Shown here piece by piece: positions 3,001-60,841 of a stretch of 64,000 bases of DNA. A program made the position numbers and the translations under genes. The stretch spans positions 11,354,060-11,418,059 of the forward strand of contig OZ038529.1 in assembly GCA_964036665.1 (NCBI GenBank), written 5' to 3'. The stretch's first letter is position 1, and each line of letters starts with the position of its first letter. This stretch comes from Gordius sp. MW1 (lineage: Eukaryota; Nematomorpha; Gordioida; Gordea; Gordiidae). The notes beneath the pieces are model-generated. The model did no database searches. It was not told the DNA's origin and was given only the letters and a program-made list of their open reading frames with translations.

Positions 3001-4695
3001 ATTAAAAATTATTGCAAAGTATAATTTCAAGTCCCTGGCCCTAGTTGCCGCTTCTCGCGGTTTTGACTTGTGATGCTTGCCCGCTACAATATTTATTTTT
3101 TTCTTTTATCCCTCTATAACTTGATGTAAAACTAAATGTTAAAAATGATATTATTTAAAATTATATGATATTTTTACAAGGACTGGGAGACTCACCCATT
3201 TAGACCTGAGCTTTGCTCACTTTAGTGATGCTACACTTTATTCGATGCTTTCGGAACAAACTAACATTACGCACCTCAGTATGGAGGATTGTTGTCTTAA
3301 TCAGGACATTTTCAAGTAAACGTTAAATAAAATCAACTTTAAAAAATGTTGTGTTTAGGTTGATTAGCCAGAATAGAAACTTGCAAATTCTAAATCTGTG
3401 TCGATGTGAGGGACTTGACGAAGTTGGCTTGAAATACATTTTCAGCTGTTGCCCGGGGTTTGTTTTCTTTTTATTTACCATTTCTTGGGCGTAGCCAATA
3501 ACTCCTCTAAATACATAAATTTGTAAAATGCTAATATACTTATGGCTTAAGTTTTAACAAATTATCATTTTGCCCCTCCCTAAAGCATTATTAATCCCCC
3601 ACCCTCTAGTTCCACTCCTGTCTAGGACCATGCATGTATCAATAAAATTAGCGATTAATAAAATATTGTTGTTTGACCCGAGAAGTGAAAGTTTTTTGTT
3701 ACAAGATGCATATTTTAATTTAATTTAACTAACGAAACGTTTACGTCTCATCTCTAGTTTGCTCGAATTGAACCTGGGTTGGGCTTGGATCGAACCTGAT
3801 TGCGTCCATAAAATATGCAGCCTGTTACCCCAAGGTTTGCTTCGGTTAAATTTTAGCGGGAGCCGCGAAAGCTTGACCGACGATGGTATACTACAACACT
3901 AACTATTACAATCACCGTTTCTATAAATGTTGCGTATTTTTTCAAGATTTGTTGACGATCCTGAAGCGTTGTGAATCGTTAGAAGAGTTAGACGTGAGTG
4001 ATTGCAGCAAGATTGGAGTGCCCTCGGTGGAGGCTGTGTGCAACTACTCGCAAGGTCTCAAAGCCTTATCCATGAGTCGATGCTACGAAGTTGAACCCAA
4101 CATCCTTTTGTAAACCATTTATTTGCCTTCCAACTTTTTCGAAATTTATAGGTATTTAAGTGATTAGAAGAATAATAATTAGAATAATAAGTGGTAATGT
4201 ATAATAATGAGATAAAAATGATAATAATAAAACAAGAATATCTTTATTGGTAACCACATAGAGGGGCCGGGGGAAGGCGTGTTCACATATAGAACATAAA
4301 CATATATGATTTTTAACAACTCGTGTTTATTTTACAATATCTAAATGTTTTTAATGATCAGACGATTAGTCTTTGATATATTCACATATATGACAATAAG
4401 TTAGAGTTTTAGAATTTCGGGACTGATTAATTTTGCTCGATCAGTGTAAAATTATATTATACCAATTGTGATTTTGCATGTTAGAAAATTGAAGGCTTTG
4501 AAAGGGCTCAAACACCTCAATATATTCAACCTGTTGAATTCTACGGGGCTTGTCAATCTGAAGGAGGCTTGCAATAAAGCGGGTGTGTTTATGGAAATCA
4601 ACCAAAATTTGTTTTCAACCATTGCGCGTCCTACTACGGGCATTAGTCGGACTAGTATTTGGAAACAACGGACGAGAGAATTAACCTGTTTATAA
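13..4695 (+). CDS. SKP2: SKP2-like F-box/LRR protein, nine exons (5' end uncertain)
   Basis: SKP2 is the substrate receptor of the SCF ubiquitin ligase that drives p27/Kip1 degradation at the G1-S transition. Exons: 13-112, 201-309, 349-469, 512-555, 3181-3315, 3359-3457, 3758-3885, 3947-4109, 4485-4695. All junctions are GT-AG and phases agree, giving 369 aa. The F-box begins WDKLSNEIIVTIFSWLP (exon 2). Exon 3 continues like vertebrate SKP2 (ETLWDCMDLSGRKI). Exons 5-8 encode leucine-rich repeats (LTHLDLS, LQILNLCRC, LLELNLGW, LEELDVSDC, LKALSMSRCYEV). The C-terminal tail FSTIARPTTG is the SKP2 signature (FTTIARPTIG in vertebrates), so this is SKP2 rather than another FBXL. The reading frame is open to base 1, so the ATG at 13 may be internal and the N-terminal degron region may lie outside. 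A possible ATTAAA poly(A) signal is at 4748. Confidence 0.9.
2015..2215 (+). mobile_element. tRNA-derived SINE, copy 1
   Basis: A pol III-type A box (CCTAGTTGGTATAAG) is followed about 35 nt later by a B box (GGTTCAAATCCC) and a body. The head and the start of the body match the SINE at 18651: CTCGTnGGTTCAAAnCCCGCTTT, then a stretch ending near AAACGAT or ATCGTCAAC. It lies inside the long SKP2 intron. Ends are approximate and no target duplication was found. Confidence 0.5.
2343..2645. repeat. Decayed MITE-like repeat with TTCGAATCGAA subterminal motifs
   Basis: Clusters of TTCGAAT/ATTCGAA occur near both ends (about 2358-2380 and 2598-2637) around an AT-rich core. The same palindromic motif recurs at 19975-20075. 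This pattern suggests transposase-binding subterminal repeats of a non-autonomous DNA transposon. Ends and target duplication are not clear. Confidence 0.3.
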
Positions 4696-5994: not shown

Positions 5995-7488
5995 CCTTCA
6001 CAAAATATGTAATTTTTTATAAAAATTAATAAATGATTTTATTATTGTACATTTTCAATGGACTTTTTTTAATATAATACATTATTCTCAACACCTAGGA
6101 GCAAATAAAGTATACCAACGACGTATTTTTTTGAATTTGTTAGAGAAGATTCTTTTAGTTCAAGATGCAAAAAATAGTTTGGTTATTTAAATCTAAGAAC
6201 ACACTTATAAATCACTTATTTTTTATTTGAAATTTTATTATTTTCTATATGACCAAGTTCTTATTTTATAGCTAACTCTTCGTTGAAAACGGCTACTTTT
6301 ATAAATTAAGTGTTTGAAGGTAAATAAACCTCAAAAGCCCTTTAGTCCATTTTAATGCTTTAGAAATTCAACTTAACTTTTTAGGTTATTTTATAATCCT
6401 ATGCTAATAATTTTTATTGTCTATTATTCCTTAATTTTAAATAAAATTTCATAAAATATTAGTTAATTTACATCCCACGAAGAAAAATATCATATAATTT
6501 GAAATTAAACTTATCTAAAATGAAAACAAGCTTTTAATTACGAAATTTTTTATAAGAGGCCATTTTCCATAAAGAATTTTTAGAAAATTTTAAATTTATA
6601 CTAAATTTATGACCACTCTGAAAATCGTTTTAAAATTATTTATGCTTACTTATTAGGACCGAGAATAAAAATAATAATGAGAGATATAATTATTTAAGGT
6701 TAATTTAAATACAAATGTTTGCGCATAATAAATAATAGTGATTTAGTCCCAAAATTTTAGGGAAATATTTTGAGTGTTAAAAACAAACGATATTAGCGGG
6801 CTTATAGTTTTGGTAATTTAAAAAGCACACATTTTTAGTTACAAAATGTTTTGCCTTTATATTATCAATGAATATAAGATTTGCGTATTGCGGGAGTAAA
6901 AAATAAAAATGCAATAAAAAATGGGCAAAATGTTCTGCTAAAAGTTATAAGCACAAATAATGCTTTAAGCGTGTACGTTAATGAGATTAAAAAATAGATG
7001 TTCAAAATTTTAAATCCCATTTTAAAATACTTTCGATTACAGAAATCTTAAAAAACTTCCTCTTACTTAGACTAATTACACAATTGTTGAAATATACCTG
7101 CCGATAAAATATATTAACTACAATATTATATAGAGTTTTTAATTAGATATTTAAAAGTAGCTTAATGACGAGTAAAACCAGTTTACACACTTACGAATGT
7201 TTGAAATTTTGTAATGGCAAAAAATTATGTAATATAATAATTCTTTACTTAGAATAAAATAAAATGCAATGATATTTTTTCACTTACTAAAATTTTGCCC
7301 TCAATAGTGTTTCCAAATTTTATTATTTTAATTAAAATAATTTTAACTATCCCTATAACTTCATGTTCATGCGAAGGATCGTTCGCATTGCTAAAATGGA
7401 TAAAAACTATCTTCGTTCCACAATTGGACAAGATAGGTTATCTTCCTTAGCTTTATAGAGCTTAGAACATAAAGAGAACAAATTATTG
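5995..7488. other. AT-rich intergenic sequence, nothing recognised
   Basis: No convincing ORF, RNA gene or repeat structure was seen. It lies between the MITE and the foldback-like element. Upstream, 4696-5407 is equally featureless apart from a small CTCGAG/TCTCGAG inverted pair at 4798-4827. Confidence 0.5.
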
Positions 7489-9052
7489 TGCTCAGTATTT
7501 AATTCAATTTTTGCTCAGTAGAATAATCACTTGCTCAGTAGAATAATTAAATGCTCAGTAAAATATTCAAATGCTCAGTAAATAATTTAATGTTCAGTAA
7601 TTTAATTATTTGCTCAGTAATTAATTCATTTGTTCCTTTATTATTTCTATGTTGCTCAGTAACTAAAATTTAAAATAAAATTAATATTTAAGCAAGATTT
7701 GAACCAGCAATGTCAATTCATAGGTGTCCTATGTGTTATCTATGTGGTAAAAAGACATGGGTTTTGTTTAGTCGACCTTAAAAGTTCGACTAAAAGGACA
7801 GAATTTATTTTTGTCTGTTTTGGTGACAGTTGTCAAAATTATCGTTTGTAGAGCGAAATTAATCCTCTAAATGAAAATTGGTGAGCTAGATATATCGTAG
7901 ATAAATTAAGAACTTTGCCCCCCTCCGTTTTTTATCCCGTTGGTTCCCCCCCCCCCCCTTATTTTTTACCCACTTTCTCACTAGGGAAGAGGGGGGGGGG
8001 GTGATTTGCCCTCCTCCCTTATTTTTTACCTTCTTTCTCACCTGGGGGGAGGGGGAGGGTGATTTCCCCCCCCCCTTAGGTTTTTATTTTCTTTCTCATA
8101 TGGGAGGGGGGGGGATAATTTGCCCCCCCCCCTTATTTTTTTATTCTCTTTCTCATCCGGGAGGGGGGAAGGGGTCATTTGCCCTCCTCCCCTTTTTTTC
8201 ACCTCTCTTATTTTTTACCCTCTTTCTAATCTGGGGGGAGATCGGAGAGTGATTTGCCCCCCCCCCCTTATTTTTTTATTCTCTTTCTCATCCGGGTGGG
8301 GGTTGCCTCCCCCCCCCTTATTTTTTACCTGGGGAAGGGGGGAGGGTGATTTGCCCCCCTCCCCTTTTTTTACCTCTCCCCTTATTTTTTACCCTCTTTC
8401 TAACCTGGGGGGAGGGTGATTTGCCCCCCCCCCCCTTTCACCCGAGGTGGCCCTCCGGGTGAGAAAGAGGGCAAATAATAGAAAGGGGGTGGAAAAGAAG
8501 GGGGGGGACAAATTACCCCCCCCCCCCGGGTGAGAAAGAGGGTAAAAAATAAGGGGGGAGGTGGGTCACTTCCTCTCCTCCCTCCCCCCAGGTGAAAAAG
8601 AGGGCAAAAGTTAAGTGGGGAGGCAAATCACCCCCCCCCCCGCCCTTCCGGGTGAGAAAGAGGGTAAAAAATAAGGGGGGGGGGGTCAAATCACCCCCCT
8701 CCCCCAGGTGAGAAAGAGGGTAAAAAAATAAGAGGGGGGTCACCCTCCTCCCCTTGATGAGAAAGAGGGTAAAAAATAAGGGGGGGGGGGAAACCAACGG
8801 GACAAAAAGGGAGGGGGGCAAAGTTCTTAATTTATTTTTGAAAAGTTGTATACCAATTAAAATATTATTTACAAAATATAAGCGCAAAATAAATTAATAT
8901 ATCATAAATTATGAATTTACATTACTGAGCATTTTAGCAAAAATACTGAGCATTATTAATTTAAAGCTGAGCATTTTAAAGTTAATTTACTGAGCAACTT
9001 TGAATTTTTAATTGGGCACTTTAATAAAATACTGAGCACATTTTACTGAGCA
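7489..9052. mobile_element. Foldback-like palindromic element with minisatellite arms
   Basis: Outer left arm (7489-7661): about eight copies of TGCTCAGTA, one of them TGTTCAGTA. Outer right arm (8933-9052): about seven copies or variants of the reverse complement TACTGAGCA. Inner left arm (about 7905-8437): about eight 50-60-bp units of C run + TTATTTTTTACCCTCTTTCTCACC + G run. Inner right arm (about 8455-8836): six units in inverse orientation (GAGAAAGAGGGTAAAAAATAAG). The arm junctions are nearly exact mirror images: AAGAACTTTGCCCCCCTCC at 7909 against GGGGGGCAAAGTTCTT near 8825. Long inverted repeats made of tandem repeats are the hallmark of foldback (FB/TU) elements. No transposase gene and no clear target duplication were found. 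Translations across it (for example 8001-8419 and 8513-8887) are shadows of the repeats. Confidence 0.65.
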
Positions 9053-10400
9053 TTTTTTAAATAACAACCCTTTAAGTTATTCCCCCGGATGCTATTGTAA
9101 ATTTTGCAACATCGAGTAAAAGGCGTTATGAACTACTATTAAAAGACTAATTTTAATATTTAATGGAAAATCATTTGGGTTTTTAAACTTGTTCTTACGA
9201 AAATTCTATCCTGGATTCAATTTAATTGTCCATCTCACATGCTTATTGTTCAACATATCTTGCATATTTTTATGTACCACATGCACATATAAAGCCAATG
9301 ATTTTCCAAAAAATAGTTTGTACATCATTTTTCATCTTATTTAGTGATATTCCATCAAAAGCTTGATAAATTAATATTGAAAACAAATTCCTAAATTTTA
9401 AAGACAATTGTTAAAGCTTCAAAACTTTCAAGGGATAAAAATCCCCAAAAAGTTCCTTATGGTGTGCCATTGGATTCAACAAAATGTACACAGACCTAAG
9501 TTGTTCTGCATCTCACATCTCTAATTTCTTCTAAAATTATTAAGTAAAATTTTGATTCATTTAATTTTGACAGCATATTTTTAAGGTTCATTTATCATAT
9601 AGCCGTTAAATTTATTAATTTAATTTTAAGGTGGTGTAAAGGGGGGGGGCGGTTGTGCAAATATATCTATAATATCACCAGGGACAATAACTTCTAAATA
9701 CTCATTCTCGAACGAATTTTAATTTCATAATTAATTTATTTTATGTTATAATTACGCCTTTTGAAGATCTAGCCTTAAAAAAATCTTTTAAATGTTCTCA
9801 TTGTTTACCTGATATAAATGCTGCCAATATTACATATGTAAAATTAAAATTTGTTATACATGTGGCCAAAAATTTTTGGGGTTGTGGCAATAAAATATTT
9901 TTTTAAAAACTTTATTGTATAGTTTTTTTACTAATTTGTATTATTTTTTAAAATGTCAACGATTTCTTATCCATAATCCCCATCCCACTTTGTGCCCTTA
10001 AAATTCATTTATACAAAAACTTATTATACCGAGTGAAATTTTCTATATTGTTTCAACTACATTACTTTGTTTAATTTATGAATAAATTTTATTTATTTTA
10101 TGCCCTAGAAACATGCGGGTCTAAGACATACCAGTGTGATGTTATTAGAAAAAATATACAAAGTAGTAGCGGAATTTTAAGTTTGTCCAACGTCCATGAG
10201 GGAAAAAATATTCATTTGCGTTTGACCCATGGTCGTATGGTTTTAAATTAAGAGGAGGGGAAAAACATAATTTTTTTAATTTTTAAGGGTTTTTGTAAAA
10301 AAATTTTTGTCCCTCCCCCCATGGCTTGACCAGCTCAGCCCCAAGGCAAAAATGCTAGCTACGCCACTCACGCCTAACTTTTTCCCATCGCTACTTTACT
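9053..10400. other. AT-rich intergenic sequence with a MITE end
   Basis: Non-coding. A G run is at 9640, and the C run near 10312-10320 followed by GCTACGCCACTCA (10360-10373) looks like the right end of a GCGTAGCC-type MITE whose left end I could not place. Confidence 0.4.
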
Positions 10401-25641: not shown

Positions 25642-28600
25642 ATGATTAAGGTTAATAAATCTACAATTCATCCAAATTTAAACACATTAGAAAACTCACT
25701 CGAAGGTCTTCCCAAACATATTAATAAAGATCTCACTATAACTGGTGTAAAATTTCATGTCTCGAAAACTATGAAAGGTTATGATGCCATAGGTTTACAG
25801 TGTGAGATATGCCCTAACAAACCACTCTTTTTGTCTATAAAAAAACTTTACGATCATTGCAAAGATCATTACAAAAGTAATGCAAAAAATTCTTTACAAT
25901 TACTTAAAAATGCGTCTCTGTCCCAAGATTTTGAACGTACCCAAGTTTGCAGAAGAATTAAATACAACCGAACAAGTACAAAACTTAAGTCTATGAAAAA
26001 CTCCTATTTTGATATGAAATCAAAGCTAGCCCAAACACTTTGTCATAATGCACAAATAAATAACATTATAACGAAATTGAGTAATTTTGATGAGTTACAA
26101 AGCATTTTTCAGATACCTCCCTATATATATTTTCAAGTATTTTATGAAAATAGTGGTCACAAATTGTGGAGCAATTTTATATATCAATTTAATGACAAAA
26201 TGATTAAAAATCTTATCAGCAGCCTTATGAATAATTTAACGGAGACTACTATAGAATCGATTGGCTCTACGTTAGATAGTTCGTTACGTTTCCAAAATAA
26301 AGGTATTTTCGTTAATAATAAAAAAATTATTAAAAGAGAATTAAATACAGACATAATCCGGATGAGTTCAAATCATCAAGATAATGCCATTGCAGGCAAA
26401 TGCAATGCTAGTCTTAAAATTAAACGGTCGATATCTTTACCTGCTTTATTATATCATAAAAAGGCGGATTCTGCTTTACAAATCGACGTAATCACAAAGA
26501 AATACTGCCAAGGAGCTCACAACTTAAATTCTGAAATGAAGTTCAATAAACAAGCAGAGACATCAACTGAAAAGCAGAAAAAGGTTATAACTAAAAAAAT
26601 AAATTATGAAAAACTCGACTATCATTTGTATATGAAAGATGGATGTAAGCCGATTAATTGTCATGCCTCTAACAATTATACGCTATCTCAAGCATCCGAT
26701 AGACAATCTATTATTCCTGTTCACCTTGATGCATTAATTTGTTTGAAACTATTTCTATATTTTATGGAAATTGAAGGTTTACTTGGCACTTTTAAGAAAA
26801 ATATTAATCCACCTACTTTATCGAGTCATAAAAGGTTAAATAATAAACAAGGTAATCGCAAAAAGTGTGAATTATTGATCTTAAAAAATATTTATGGACT
26901 TGATCATACCGTTAGGACCAATATTGTTCAGGATCGGCCGCTTTGTAGTGTAAAAGACAAAATTAATTTAAGAGTAAAGAAAAGAAAATATATCGCCAAA
27001 AATTCATATGATAATGAAAAAACTATAATAAATAAAAACAACAAATTAATTCCAAATTCGAGAGAAAGTGTAGGTGATTTAGAATGCGATACTACATGTA
27101 CAAAAGATCAAAAACCAAACGAAGCGTTAATAAATCGTCGCAAAACGAAATTTGTTAAATTACTTGAGTGCGATTCACAATTTGTTCCTACAACTGATTG
27201 CAGCAGGTATATTACATTATTTGTCAATATGTTTCAGACATTATAGGAAACCCTTTTCAACTGTTTACTATATATAAGAATACAAAATAACCATTTAATT
27301 TCAGCACGGTACGCGTTTGCTAGAGTGTTTTTAAAATATTATAAGTATAAACCAACCATTTTAATTAATATTTACGTTTTTATTTATTTAAGCAACGATT
27401 TACACTCGTTTTCACACTAATTAATGCGATTTTTAGGAATTTTTAAATTAGAGACTGATTTAATAAAAATACCCTACTTTAGGAGTGCCTTATAAATAAA
27501 ACATACTTTTGCCATTTATTAAAAATAATTATTATTTGATCGTTTATTTTCGTGTCACATTTAATTGAGATAGATTTTAAAGGTCATTTGCTGTTGAAAA
27601 GTAATGGTTCCATTAATACCATATTTATCAATCATTTAATTTTAAAAATCGAAATTATTTTAATATATAGTCTTCGGCTTTAATTTCCTAACGTGTTCTA
27701 AAAAATTTACACAGAAAAATACACAATTATTAATTAGGTTATATTTATATACATGGGCGTAGCCATTGGAATTAGAGCGGGCAATAATGATTCAGGGACG
27801 GGAAAAATGATTATTTTTTAATATTTTAGCCATAACTTTAATAAATTTTAGCAAATCGCCCTTCCCTGCCCCCCCCCTAACTGCGCCCATGTCAACCAGA
27901 AATTGTTACGATAATAAGTTAGATGGATTATTAATAATGTATAAATTTATAAAGTAAAAAAGTTAATTTATAAAATAAGAGTTTACACCACAAAAACATA
28001 TTCATAATTCAAACGAATAAAATTTTTAATCCCTTAGGTCGAAATGTAAAGATCTTCAGTTGCCAAATGTTTTGCAGGGAAATTTATGTTTTAACAGGGA
28101 TGCTAACAACAACCTTTTATTGAATGATTGTACATCTTTAAACACCAATTGTGTCAAATTCTCGCATTTAAAAGCAAAAAATCACAGTAGTAATCTTACA
28201 AATTTTTATTGTTATATGATCCTTAATTGATTATAGCAAATTATAAAAATCCAGACTTGCATACATTCAAATGTTCTTTTTGCAATTACTGGAGCAGAAC
28301 TAGTAGTCAACTAAAAGTACATATGAAGAGACATCAAGGTAATTGTTTTTTTAAAATTTATGTATTTTATTAATGAGTAACTTGCTAATATGAATTTTAT
28401 TTAGGTATAAGAGGTTACACTTGTAAAGTCTGTGATTATCATGGAGTAACGCAATCGGATCTAAACAGGCACAAAAAAGCTCAATCTCATTTGTGCCGCG
28501 CCCAAAATGTATGCAGCAATTGTGACAAAGGATTTATGACCAAATACATACTGGATCAACATAAATGTGAAACGGAAAGTTATAAACAAGAAAAAGGCTC

Positions 28601-34839: not shown

Positions 34840-37815
34840 CTTTGGCTAAATAGGAATTTTAAAAATGATATAAAGTTTCAAACAAGATTTTACAACAGAA
34901 AGTTAGGGCGTCCTCCACAAACGACGGGCACTGCATACCCCGCCCGTGCAATGTGAAAAATATACTAGGGTTACTGCCCAACTCACAACGAAGGCGGTTA
35001 AGGAAATTAGTTGTGGAGAGAATGCGAATAACGTGCTGGAATGTGAGAACGTTGACGGGGAAGAACATCGAGGTCGCACAAATGCTAAAAAAAAAGGTAC
35101 ACATCGCCTGCCTACAAGAGACGAGGTGGAACGGATTGAAAGCTCGGGAATTAGGAGAAGGATACAAGCTTTTCTACAGTGGGTTACCAAGTCTTAGAAA
35201 CAGGGTCGGTATCTTTCAAGCAAATCGTTCAAGGACAAGGTGGTGGAAGTCAAGCGTTGTTCCGACAGGCTAATGTGGGTGAAGATTGCAGATCAATGGG
35301 GCCTTCTAACCGTTATGTGAGCGTATGTTCCCCAAATGGGTGTATGGAATCAGAGAAAGACATATTCTTCGATTCATTGGAAAAAGAAATGCAATGAATA
35401 CGACCGGAAGAAAGGCTAATTATTGGGGCCGATTTTAACTCACATATGGAAAGATCTTCTTGGGTATGAACGCAATCATGGAGGGTATGGGCATGGTCTG
35501 AAGAACAAAGAAGGGGACAAACTTCTCCAAGTGTCCCAAGGATATGACATGGCGATGGTTAACACCTATTTTCAAAAACCGGAAGATCATAGTGCGACCT
35601 GTAGAAGTGGGAAGCATTTTAGTCGAATTGACTATTTGTACGACGAAAGGACTTATGGAGTATTAAGAAAGTAATACCGGGAGAAGAAATCGCCAGGCAA
35701 CATCGTCCCCTTGTTATGGATCTTGACAACAGAGTATTTCCCGAAAGAAGAAAGGTCTATGAACCTCGAATTCGATACGAAAGGCTAAAGGATACGTCTA
35801 CGAACGAAGAATACCATCAAAAAGCCTCCTCACTCTTGGGTGCAAGGACGTTGCAAAGGGACGTAGACGACGATTGGGAGACGCTATCTAAGGACATTAA
35901 GGAAACAGCGATCCGTGTTCTAGGACAGACCAAAGAAGGCAAAGCTATGAATAGGGAACTATGGAGGTAGGATCAATCGGTTAAGGATTTCATCAAAAGA
36001 AAGAAAAATCCATATAGACGGTGGCATAAATTAAAAAAAGTCGGAGGATTATCAAGAGGACAGGGACGCAAAGAGGCCGCAAAAAGGCCGTTGCAAAAGC
36101 GAATAATGCCGCCTACACCGAGATGGCAAACAAACTGGATCATAAAGGGGGCGATAGGCTTATATACAAATTGAGAAGAGAAGCCGCGATGTCGGAGTTC
36201 TTAAAATAAAAACGAAAAGAGAGAAACCTTATTCAGGCCGAAAGAAGTGTTAAGGTGGAAAGGATATTTTAAAAAACTTATGAATATTGCAAATGACAAG
36301 GATTTTCTTCCCAAAATTGAGCCAAATATAAGTATGGTCGAACTCTTTAGGAGGATAAAGCTAGGACAAAAATGAACAAGATGCAAAAAGGAAAAGCAAA
36401 TGGCCCAGATGGAATACCTATAGAAGCATTGCTCGGATGTCGTGAAGAAGGAGTCACCACCATGAGGAACCTCCTTAACAAGATATTGGTAGAAGAGCGA
36501 ATTCCTAATCAATAGAGAGCAAGCACGATTATACCCTTATTTAAAGGCTAAAGAGACCCTCAGGACTGTGGCAATTACAGAGGTATCAAGCTAACTTGCC
36601 ACTCCTTGAAGCTTATGGAAAGGATCTTAGTAACGAGGCTGAAAAACGAGGTGGATATATCGGCTAATCAATTCGGATTTGTGGCCGGCAAATCCACAAT
36701 CGACCCAATCTTCGCACGAAGACAAATCATGGATAAGTATGGTTAAAAGAGGAAAGACCTACATATGGTTTTTATCGACTTGGAAAAAGCTTATGACACG
36801 GTCCCCCGTTTAATATGGTGGTGCCTGAGGAAACAAAATATCCCTGACGCATATATACGGCTTATGAAAAATATTTATGAAGCCTCAAACTCTTGCGTTA
36901 GGACGACAGTTGGATACTCTAAACCTTTTCGGGTTAATATTCGATAACATCAAGGCTCTGCTTTAAGTCCCTTTTTATTTAATATAATTATAGACACGAT
37001 AACGAGGGACATTCAAAAGCCATCGCCATGGTGTATGCTATATGCCGATGTTATAGTACTATGCGAGGAAACAAGGGATAAAGTATTCGAAGAAGCTGAA
37101 AAGTGGTCAAAGCACTTAGCTGGATATGGTTTAAAGGTCAACGAACGAAAAACGGTATACATGAAAATGAACGATAGATGCACCCCATCGCTGGATGACC
37201 ATCTAAATTACCCAAAAGTAGACAGGTTGACTTACCTCGGCTCGATGCTACATCAAGAGGGAAAGTGCGCAACGGAAGTCACTGCCCGGATCCAAAAAGG
37301 ATGGCATTGGCGAAGTATATCCGGTGTAATGTGCGACAAGAAAATGCCAATATGGTTGAAGAGCAAAGCTTACAAATCCATCGTAAGACCGGTTTTACTC
37401 TTTGGAAGCATGGGCATTAAACACCATGGAAGGAAAGCTATTACAAGCCACAGAGATGAGAATGATACGGTGGAGCTTGGGGTATACTAAGCTCGACCAT
37501 ATGACGAATGACTTTCTCATGACAAAAATGGGTATACAACCTATGGCGGACATGATTAACGAAAATCGGCTAAGGTGGTATGGGCATATAATAAGAAGGG
37601 ACACGGATGACGTAAATCGAAAAGTAATGGACACAGAGGTACCGGGGAAGAGAGGAAGAGGACGACCCCGTGTTACGTGGAAAGGGCAAGTCGATAAAGT
37701 TGAAAACTAAAGAGATTTCTCAAGACATGGCACTCACCCGGTCAAGATGGAAGAAACCTATCAAAACAAACTCCACGAATGTGGGACCAAATAACTGATA
37801 AAGAAGGAGAAGATG
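34840..37815 (+). mobile_element. RTE-type LINE, near full length, inactive
   Basis: Endonuclease region about 34950-35710 (ACLQETRWNG, IIGADFNS, SRIDYL, ARQHRPLV). Linker about 35720-36180. Reverse transcriptase about 36380-37400 (NQFGFVAGKST, VFIDLEKAYDTVPR, HQGSALSPFLFN, MLYADVIVL). C-terminal zone WYGHIIRRDTDDVNRK and GKRGRGRPRVTWKG. It ends in GATAAAGAAGGAGAAGATGATG. Many frameshifts are present, and the catalytic YADD box reads YADV, so the copy is dead. It is the same family as the minus-strand copy at 43325-44690. Confidence 0.82.
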
Positions 37816-43324: not shown

Positions 43325-44690
43325 ATATGGATCCTATCTTCTTCTTCTTCTTTATCAATTCGTAGGTCCCACATTCGTGGGGTTTTTTATCAGTTTCTTC
43401 CATCTAGCTCGTGTTAGAGCCATATTGGGATCGATCTTCTTATTGAGCATAACTTTGTCCACTTGCCCTTTCCAGGTACCACGAGGTCGACCTCTTCCTC
43501 TTTTTCCCGGCACTTCCATGTCTAGTACTATTCGATTGACGTCACTCGCATTTCTTCTCAAGATATGCCCATACCATCTTAGCCGATTTTCGTTAATATA
43601 GTCGGCTATTGGCTGAATACCCATTTTTTCTCTAAGACTTTCATTCGTCATATGGTCCAACTTTGTGTATCCCAAGCTCCAGCGTATCATTCTCATTTCC
43701 GTCGCTTGTAATACTTTCAAGATTTATGACCAGTGGCCGATGTTGCCTGGCGATTTCTTCTCCCGGTATTACTTTGCAGTCCTTAATCGTCCATAAATCT
43801 CTTCGTCGTATAAGCAGATAATCAATTTGACTATAATGCTTACCACTTCTGTACGTCACGATATGTTCTTCACGTTTCTGAAAATAAGTGTTAACGATCG
43901 CCATGTCATATGCTTGGGAAACTTGTAAAAGTCTATCCCCTTCCTTGTTCTTCATGCCATGCCCATGTCCTCCATGATTTCTTTCGTAATTTTGACGATC
44001 TTTTCCCACGTGGGCGTTGAAGTCTGCCCCAATAATTAGCCTCTCCTCCTGTCGTATTCCTTGTATTTCTTTTTCCAATGATTGGAAGAAGGTGTCTTTT
44101 TCGGATTCAAAACACCCAATTTGTGGTGCGTAGCCACAAATAACGGTTAAGAGGCCACCTTGATCTGCGATCTTAACCCACATCAACCTATCTGAGCATC
44201 TTTTGACTTCAACAACCTTGTCCTTGAAGGATTCGCTGAGAACGATACCGACCCCGTTTCGACCTGTTGGTGACCCGCTGTAAAATAGCTTGTAACCCTC
44301 TCCTAGCTCTCGTGCCTTCGTTCCGTTCCATCTCGTTTCCTGTAGGCAAGCGATGTGTATCTTTCTTCTTTTGAGCATCTGTGCGACCTCAATGCTTTTC
44401 CCCGTCAGCGTGCCCACGTTCCAGCTTGCTACCCGTACTTTGTCCACAACTAGATTCCTTAACCGCCTTCGTTGTGAGTCAGGCGGTAACCCTTGTAAAT
44501 TTTTCGCATTGCACGGGCGGATGATGCACTGCGCGTCGTTTGGAGAGGACGCCCTAGCTTTCTTTTGTTGCACTTTATTAGAAACTGTCATAATTTGGAA
44601 AAGGTTTTTTTTAAAGCCGGTTTCCCACCTGACGCCAACCCTCCACTTTTTGCACACGGACTTGGGACCGTCGTTGGTATCCTATGCTAA
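43325..44690 (-). mobile_element. RTE-type LINE, internally deleted, intact endonuclease ORF
   Basis: A 338-codon frame (44657-43641) encodes a complete APE-type endonuclease: WNVGTLTG, ACLQETRWNG, GRNGVGIV, IIGADFNAHVG, SQIDYLLIR, ARQHRPLV. At about 43720 the sequence jumps to the LINE's C-terminal part in another frame (43720-43355: MRMIRWSLGYTKLDHMTN, RLRWYGHILRR, GKRGRGRPRGTWKG). Compared with the plus-strand copy, about 1.7 kb with the whole reverse transcriptase is missing. The 3' end is TGATAAAG(AAG)n, typical of RTE short-repeat tails. The endonuclease residues Glu, Asp-x-Asn and terminal His are all present. Confidence 0.85.

Positions 44691-47754: not shown

Positions 47755-60841
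<13,087 letters not shown>

Follow-up and report, generated by a model that had tools for sequence, protein, structure and literature searches.

The question raised by this locus is what kind of element carries two nested layers of inverted repeats. The locus lies in a 64-kb stretch of DNA (C3:11354060-11418059, hereafter the window), and the genome searched comprises 211.8 Mb in 12 contigs. The original prediction placed the two layers at 7489-9052, mirrored about a centre near 8450, and proposed a foldback or TIR transposon with subterminal repeats. Both layers are real, with 8 and 5-6 outer words and 6 inner units on each strand, and orientation flips once, near 8440-8455. The predicted extent was nearly correct; copies elsewhere move the ends to 7474 and 9069. 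In our reading, to which we give a probability of about 0.8, the element is a two-module, non-autonomous foldback with MULE-type ends. Its parts, in window positions, are as follows.

7474..9069, + strand: whole element, in all probability a non-autonomous foldback with MULE-type ends (ends set by copies elsewhere)
7474..7487, + strand: left terminal motif GAGAACAAATTATT, common to copies and adjoining 9-bp duplications
7489..7661, + strand: outer array of 8 TGCTCAGTA words, with spacings of 23, 20, 20, 20, 19, 20 and 42
7662..7899, + strand: left spacer without a mirror on the right, present in other core-bearing copies
7901..7923, + strand: left junction word ATAAATTAAGAACTTTGCCCCCC of the inner core, with an inverted copy at 8813-8835
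7914..8440, + strand: left inner array of 50-60-bp C/G units
8441..8455, no strand: centre of the inner palindrome, where units switch orientation
8456..8822, - strand: right inner array, inverted
8813..8835, - strand: right junction word of the inner core
8836..8922, + strand: right spacer, common with MULE-bearing copies from about 8854-8863
8923..9052, - strand: right outer array of 5-6 inverted TGCTCAGTA words
9053..9069, + strand: right terminal motif, decayed in the window copy (by comparison with other copies)

Hence, from the outside in, a terminal motif precedes TGCTCAGTA words at intervals of about 20 bp; next come a spacer and 50-60-bp units with C/G runs. On the right side, the arrays recur in reversed order and orientation. 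Words on the + strand begin at 7489, 7512, 7532, 7552, 7572, 7591 (one mismatch), 7611 and 7653. Inverted words begin at 8923, 8944, 8988, 9030 and 9044, allowing one mismatch, and at 8965 with two. The original counts, about 8 words on the left and about 7 on the right, are close to the 8 and 5 (6 if two mismatches are allowed) given here. The words are concentrated here; 13 of the 20 in the window (up to one mismatch) fall inside the element, whereas base shuffles of the arms, 500 in all, averaged 0.04 words and never exceeded 2. An open reading frame at 8513-8887 lies within the repeats, and was not taken as a gene.

A transposon should recur, and this one does. With the whole element as query, at least 208 matching pieces were found in the genome (40 of 1955 candidates scored). 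The 32-nt left end, with up to three mismatches, occurs at 294 places (158+136); a reversed control found 0. The family, judged from copies in other places, begins GAGAAC and finishes AACATCC. The right end of most other copies is ATTTAAATAACATCC, and the window copy is without the stretch beside the right terminal motif. Both ends were defined for 27 elements, of which 21 are from L002-L030 and six carry MULE sequence. Perfect 9-bp target duplications flank 16 of these 27, compared to 1 of 702 mispaired flanks. Allowing one mismatch, the numbers are 22 of 27 and 9 of 702; the remaining five have 2-6 mismatches. No perfect duplication of any other length from 5 to 12 bp was found in the 27 elements. 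One copy, L003, is nested within another of the same family, and is bordered by the duplication GTATTTAAT. No 9-bp duplication borders the window copy (flanks GAACATAAA and CTTTAAGTT), a decayed member of this repeated, mobile family. The checks named with the original prediction, for further copies and for a target duplication of 9-10 bp, both come out in its favour. Separately, four exact left ends occur on one strand of C5, at 15329502, 15333097, 15336661 and 15340276, about 3.6 kb apart. There, the element seems to have turned into part of a larger tandem repeat.

The outer layer forms ends of the Mutator-like (MULE) transposon type. MULEs make target duplications of 8-11 bp, a range that includes the 9 bp of this family, the window copy excepted. 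Furthermore, longer copies with the same ends carry pieces of transposase. The genome has 128 matches to PF10551, and one lies in L061, 1.2 kb inside the family left end (31 bits, cut-off 27.6). This copy has both family ends, is 3,059 bp long, and is flanked by the perfect 9-bp duplication GAATTAAAA. Similarly, L062 (2,138 bp) has both ends, a perfect 9-bp duplication and a PF10551 match. Both ends and perfect duplications also mark the MULE-bearing copies L043, L098 and L100; a sixth, L095, has both ends and a duplication with 3 mismatches. The inspected MULE pieces are short or broken, and no intact transposase was seen among them. Comparable word arrays are present in L061, L098 and L100. 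By analogy with Galileo, where repeated TIR words bind transposase (PMC3688188), the outer TGCTCAGTA words are probably transposase sites, which makes the protein-binding role suggested in the original prediction plausible.

The MULE-bearing copies also show where the outer layer stops. Copies L061, L062, L098 and L100 match the window element at about 7474-7662 and from 8854 or 8863 to 9069; L043 matches more weakly. The left spacer (7662..7899) has no match in L061, L098 or L100, and L062 has only a 23-nt match, at chance level, outside the element. Similarity between the MULE-bearing copies and the window element is thus limited to about 7474-7662 and 8854-9069; the layers are distinct modules and differ in origin. 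The left ends vary at one base, which we compared in 100 listed ends of the 294, using the 128 and 119 listed MULE places. Where this base is A or C, at least 10 of 27 ends have a same-strand MULE match within 3.5 kb. Where it is T, none of 73 has such a listed match. The result was identical with 34 selected MULE places and with the whole lists. Conversely, 39 core-bearing left arms map to at least 20 of the 73 T-type ends and to at least 1 of the 27 A/C-type ends. Hence, coding and core-bearing copies appear to belong to separate subfamilies that have their ends in common.

We now turn to the inner layer. Six units lie on the + strand (7959-8382) and six on the - strand (8458-8756). The core, at 7907-8830, folds as one long hairpin with a predicted energy of -327 kcal/mol, compared to -192 +/- 6 kcal/mol for 20 shuffles (z -22.8). 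As in foldback elements, the inverted arms are long, internally repetitive, and able to fold back. The same anatomy recurs. Exactly one flip in unit orientation was found in 39 of 43 elements or loci (32 of 33, and 7 of a second set of ten, nine fam1 loci and L121). No locus has more than one. The four without a flip are L013 (1 unit), L019 (11 units on one strand), L027 (3 units) and L029 (none). Elements that flip have between 4 and 52 units. Across the genome, the terminal 18-mer of the core, AAATTAAGAACTTTGCCC, has 882 matches with up to two mismatches (457+425; control 12+2). The unit word, at the same stringency, occurs at 3121+3147 places (control 0).

Two further arrays were seen. The first, L122:1-3471, is a fam2 interior made up of 3.5 kb of C/G units alone, with 37 one way and then 15 inverted. 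The second, L116:1-681, is a long array of the same type beside L072, on one strand and satellite-like. We also considered whether a transposase gene lies inside the core intervals of L122 and L123. The former consists of units only, the sequence between the arrays of L123 is non-coding, and the open reading frames listed for both intervals are encoded by units.

The inner core is not confined to the MULE family. We sampled ten inverted pairs on C1 and C2, with terminal words 0.4-1.1 kb apart, and 20 of 24 further exact matches listed on C1 outside known loci. Counting L076 and L077 once, as they mark opposite ends of a single core, this gave 29 distinct cores, from about 440 expected if each of the 882 word matches is one end. 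Frames, judged by eye from the flanks, were fam1 for 6 cores, fam2 for 18, fam4 for 3 and fam3 for 2; none of the 29 lies in plainly unique DNA. Hence, the same terminal word is found inside at least four outer frames. The first, fam1, is the frame of the window element, and L064 belongs to it on one side only. The ends of fam2 are TA[G/T]AGTTGTTAAATTGC (mostly TA[G/T]AG); L090 matches partly, L079, L082, L087 and L088 have diverged, and L078 has an insert. The fam4 frame is GGAGTCAGCGAACG, and fam3 has arms with AAACGCCAAAGG, on one side only in L068. The left flank of L068 and the right flank of L045 contain a stretch starting ATCAGGCAAAA...ATCACAATGGAAATCG, a further repeat that borders elements.

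The target duplications differ between frames. Six of seven two-ended fam2 elements have perfect duplications of 8 bp, and none of any other length from 5 to 12 bp. The seventh, L078/L119, has GGTTATAA and GGTTATAT, identical at 7 of 8 bases, and ends TAGTG and AAGAG. One fam3 element has the duplication TTTGATAT, by eye, of 8 bp, or 9 with the preceding base. For the fam2/fam4 elements L117, L118 and L120, no other end was present in the stretch examined. Note that hAT transposons make 8-bp duplications and have CA/TA-type ends, both of which are found in fam2. A hAT domain is present in L121, beside other repeats resembling a nested element. By position alone, it looks like a partner for fam2. 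Since it lies between the core arms, beside those repeats, we did not count it. Equally, fam2 may be a P element, or a MULE with 8-bp duplications. The 8-bp duplications indicate that the fam2 transposase probably differs from that of fam1; note that some MULEs also make 8 bp, according to the accessible text of PMC5225508.

The junctions of the core differ between frames. Upstream of the core, the left side of fam1 (20 rows) and fam2 (22 rows) agree over ATATATCATAAATAAATTAAGAAC. For the right side of fam1 (26 rows) and fam3, agreement is confined to about AAATAAATTAAGAAC. Note that the 22-row fam2 consensus contains at least L072 and L074, which are fam4 by their outer ends, and that 15 rows fell in 'other'. 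At the junction, fam2 and fam4 have about 20 bp more in common. The difference in junctions amounts to about 9 bp, whether one frame is set against another or the left of fam1 against its right. A different junction, TGTGAAGAT(T/G)TGCCCC, is used by L123 and L126. Alternatively, an inner transposon might end in the 14-15 bp that the junctions have in common.

The outer ends and the core are best explained, in our view, as a composite assembled in steps. The family MULE transposase would have bound the repeated TGCTCAGTA words, again by analogy, and moved the element in trans. The core would have moved from frame to frame when synthesis, in the repair of a gap or at a stalled fork, switched template. 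After capture, the transposase of each frame would have amplified the core, and the arrays would have grown and shrunk via slippage or unequal exchange. We regard the odds as about even for this history of capture, amplification and array change. More speculatively, the core may be a second-order parasite: a hairpin module without its own transposase, hopping among MULE and, probably, hAT frames, whose own hairpin stalls forks and so provokes the template switch. We consider this version rather doubtful.

Two other histories merit more than passing attention. In one, compatible with the composite just outlined, the C/G core was the original inner arm of fam2, from which other frames took it. 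Since fam2 is the commonest frame (18 of 29 cores), mirrors its arms and core with hardly any spacer, and includes the 52-unit, 3.5-kb interior of L122, this is a possibility to take seriously. Even so, the core sample comes mostly from one chromosome, and we think it somewhat less probable than its converse. In another, the core is itself a foldback transposon, which would have entered each frame in an insertion of its own and travelled with that frame thereafter. Plain nesting of this sort would account for a terminal word that recurs in four frames, stands in inverted copies at the two core ends, and is accompanied by TTAA on either side. However, TTAA lies within a longer conserved word, and a free-standing core with TTAA duplications, as expected of a TTAA-type transposon, was found in 0 of 29 cases. 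Nor were directly core-less fam1 copies detected; among the 40 candidates scored of 508, no match ran across the join of the two flanks, and left-arm matches of this query stopped at the join in 29 of 39 cases and before it in 10. Differing break points, and no empty frame, mean that capture by template switching fits better than clean insertion in this limited sample. Separate insertion is, accordingly, unlikely.

That the repeats form a cellular satellite or a regulatory structure, and belong to no transposon, is far less probable still. The abundance of the unit word would suit it, as would the arrays sampled away from known core ends: of three, L126 is fam3, and the flanks of L124 and L125 could be assigned to none of the frames. 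Hence, unit arrays may also occur outside transposons. The target duplications, together with the MULE-bearing relatives, argue against a satellite, and the former exclude it for the element as a whole; arrays elsewhere are not covered by this argument. Finally, an assembly artefact or local inverted duplication is extremely improbable: long C/G tracts are hard to sequence, and run lengths could be wrong in the assembly, but 39 of 43 loci repeat the anatomy, although their unit numbers differ, and 16 of 27 elements inserted at different places have their own exact 9-bp duplications.

Composite arms, with outer and inner domains, occur in sea-urchin TU elements and Drosophila FB, and in this the window element resembles them (by description, not sequence). 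The closest described family for the outer part, on the accessible text, is Tm1 of root-knot nematodes, a Mutator/Foldback family whose transposase resembles the Phantom subclass of MULEs (PMC3169594). Like the window family, Tm1 has 9-bp duplications, asymmetric terminal motifs, and repeated TIR words, in its case a variable number of tandem words of about 14 bp. It also has MITE-like copies and, in some, nested inverted repeats. Unlike the window family, its word and termini are different, and neither an inverted C/G core nor core sharing between frames is described in the accessible parts of that report. Muta1 of Aedes aegypti is a 3.2-kb element that its authors class as a type 2 foldback (PMC5225508). 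There, 10 of 12 long-TIR MULE families have subterminal tandem repeats of 9-15 bp. Muta1 and its relatives also have 8-9-bp duplications, and non-autonomous copies with foreign interiors. However, those interiors vary, whereas one hairpin core is found here, and Muta1 words are of 12 bp with 3-4-bp spacers, compared to 9-bp words about every 20 bp. Note that likeness to Tm1 and Muta1 is by end anatomy.

Two other systems offer partial parallels. Tetris, of Drosophila virilis, is a non-autonomous foldback, whose arm repeats also form satellite arrays, and which has end parts in common with another element, DAIBAM (PMC4079207). Its 220-bp arm repeats are within the TIRs, whereas core and ends are separate modules here. 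Galileo, in which the THAP domain of the transposase binds repeated words in long TIRs, belongs to another superfamily, P (PMC3688188). The original prediction knew of no described family with this combination. For the outer half, this does not hold, given Tm1 (PMC3169594) and Muta1 (PMC5225508), both seen in accessible text; MULEs with such ends are already published. The unusual part is the hairpin core common to several frames. We found no report, in the open literature, of one inverted minisatellite core common to several transposon frames.

How foldback elements acquire their arms is a question that the shared core addresses. Foldback structure is thought, in the accessible text of PMC4079207, to have arisen several times from different transposon lineages. 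Because one genome has the same kind of inner arms in several frames, and their junctions can be read, arm capture by template switching is directly testable. Hairpin cores, with 882 terminal-word matches, might in addition give rise to breaks and inversions.

Elsewhere in the window, no RNA families (at the gathering threshold) or tRNAs were detected. An open frame of 534 codons (25642-27246, + strand) has no Pfam match at E 0.01. An Exo_endo_phos domain (37.7 bits) lies at 43641-44657 on the - strand, and at 37035-37490 on the + strand a reverse transcriptase match is weak and falls below its cut-off; both are probably remains of non-LTR retrotransposons. Finally, two tandem repeats are present: a 114-bp unit at 53448-53868 (3.7 copies, 95% matches) and a 127-bp unit at 54994-55620 (4.9 copies, 92%).
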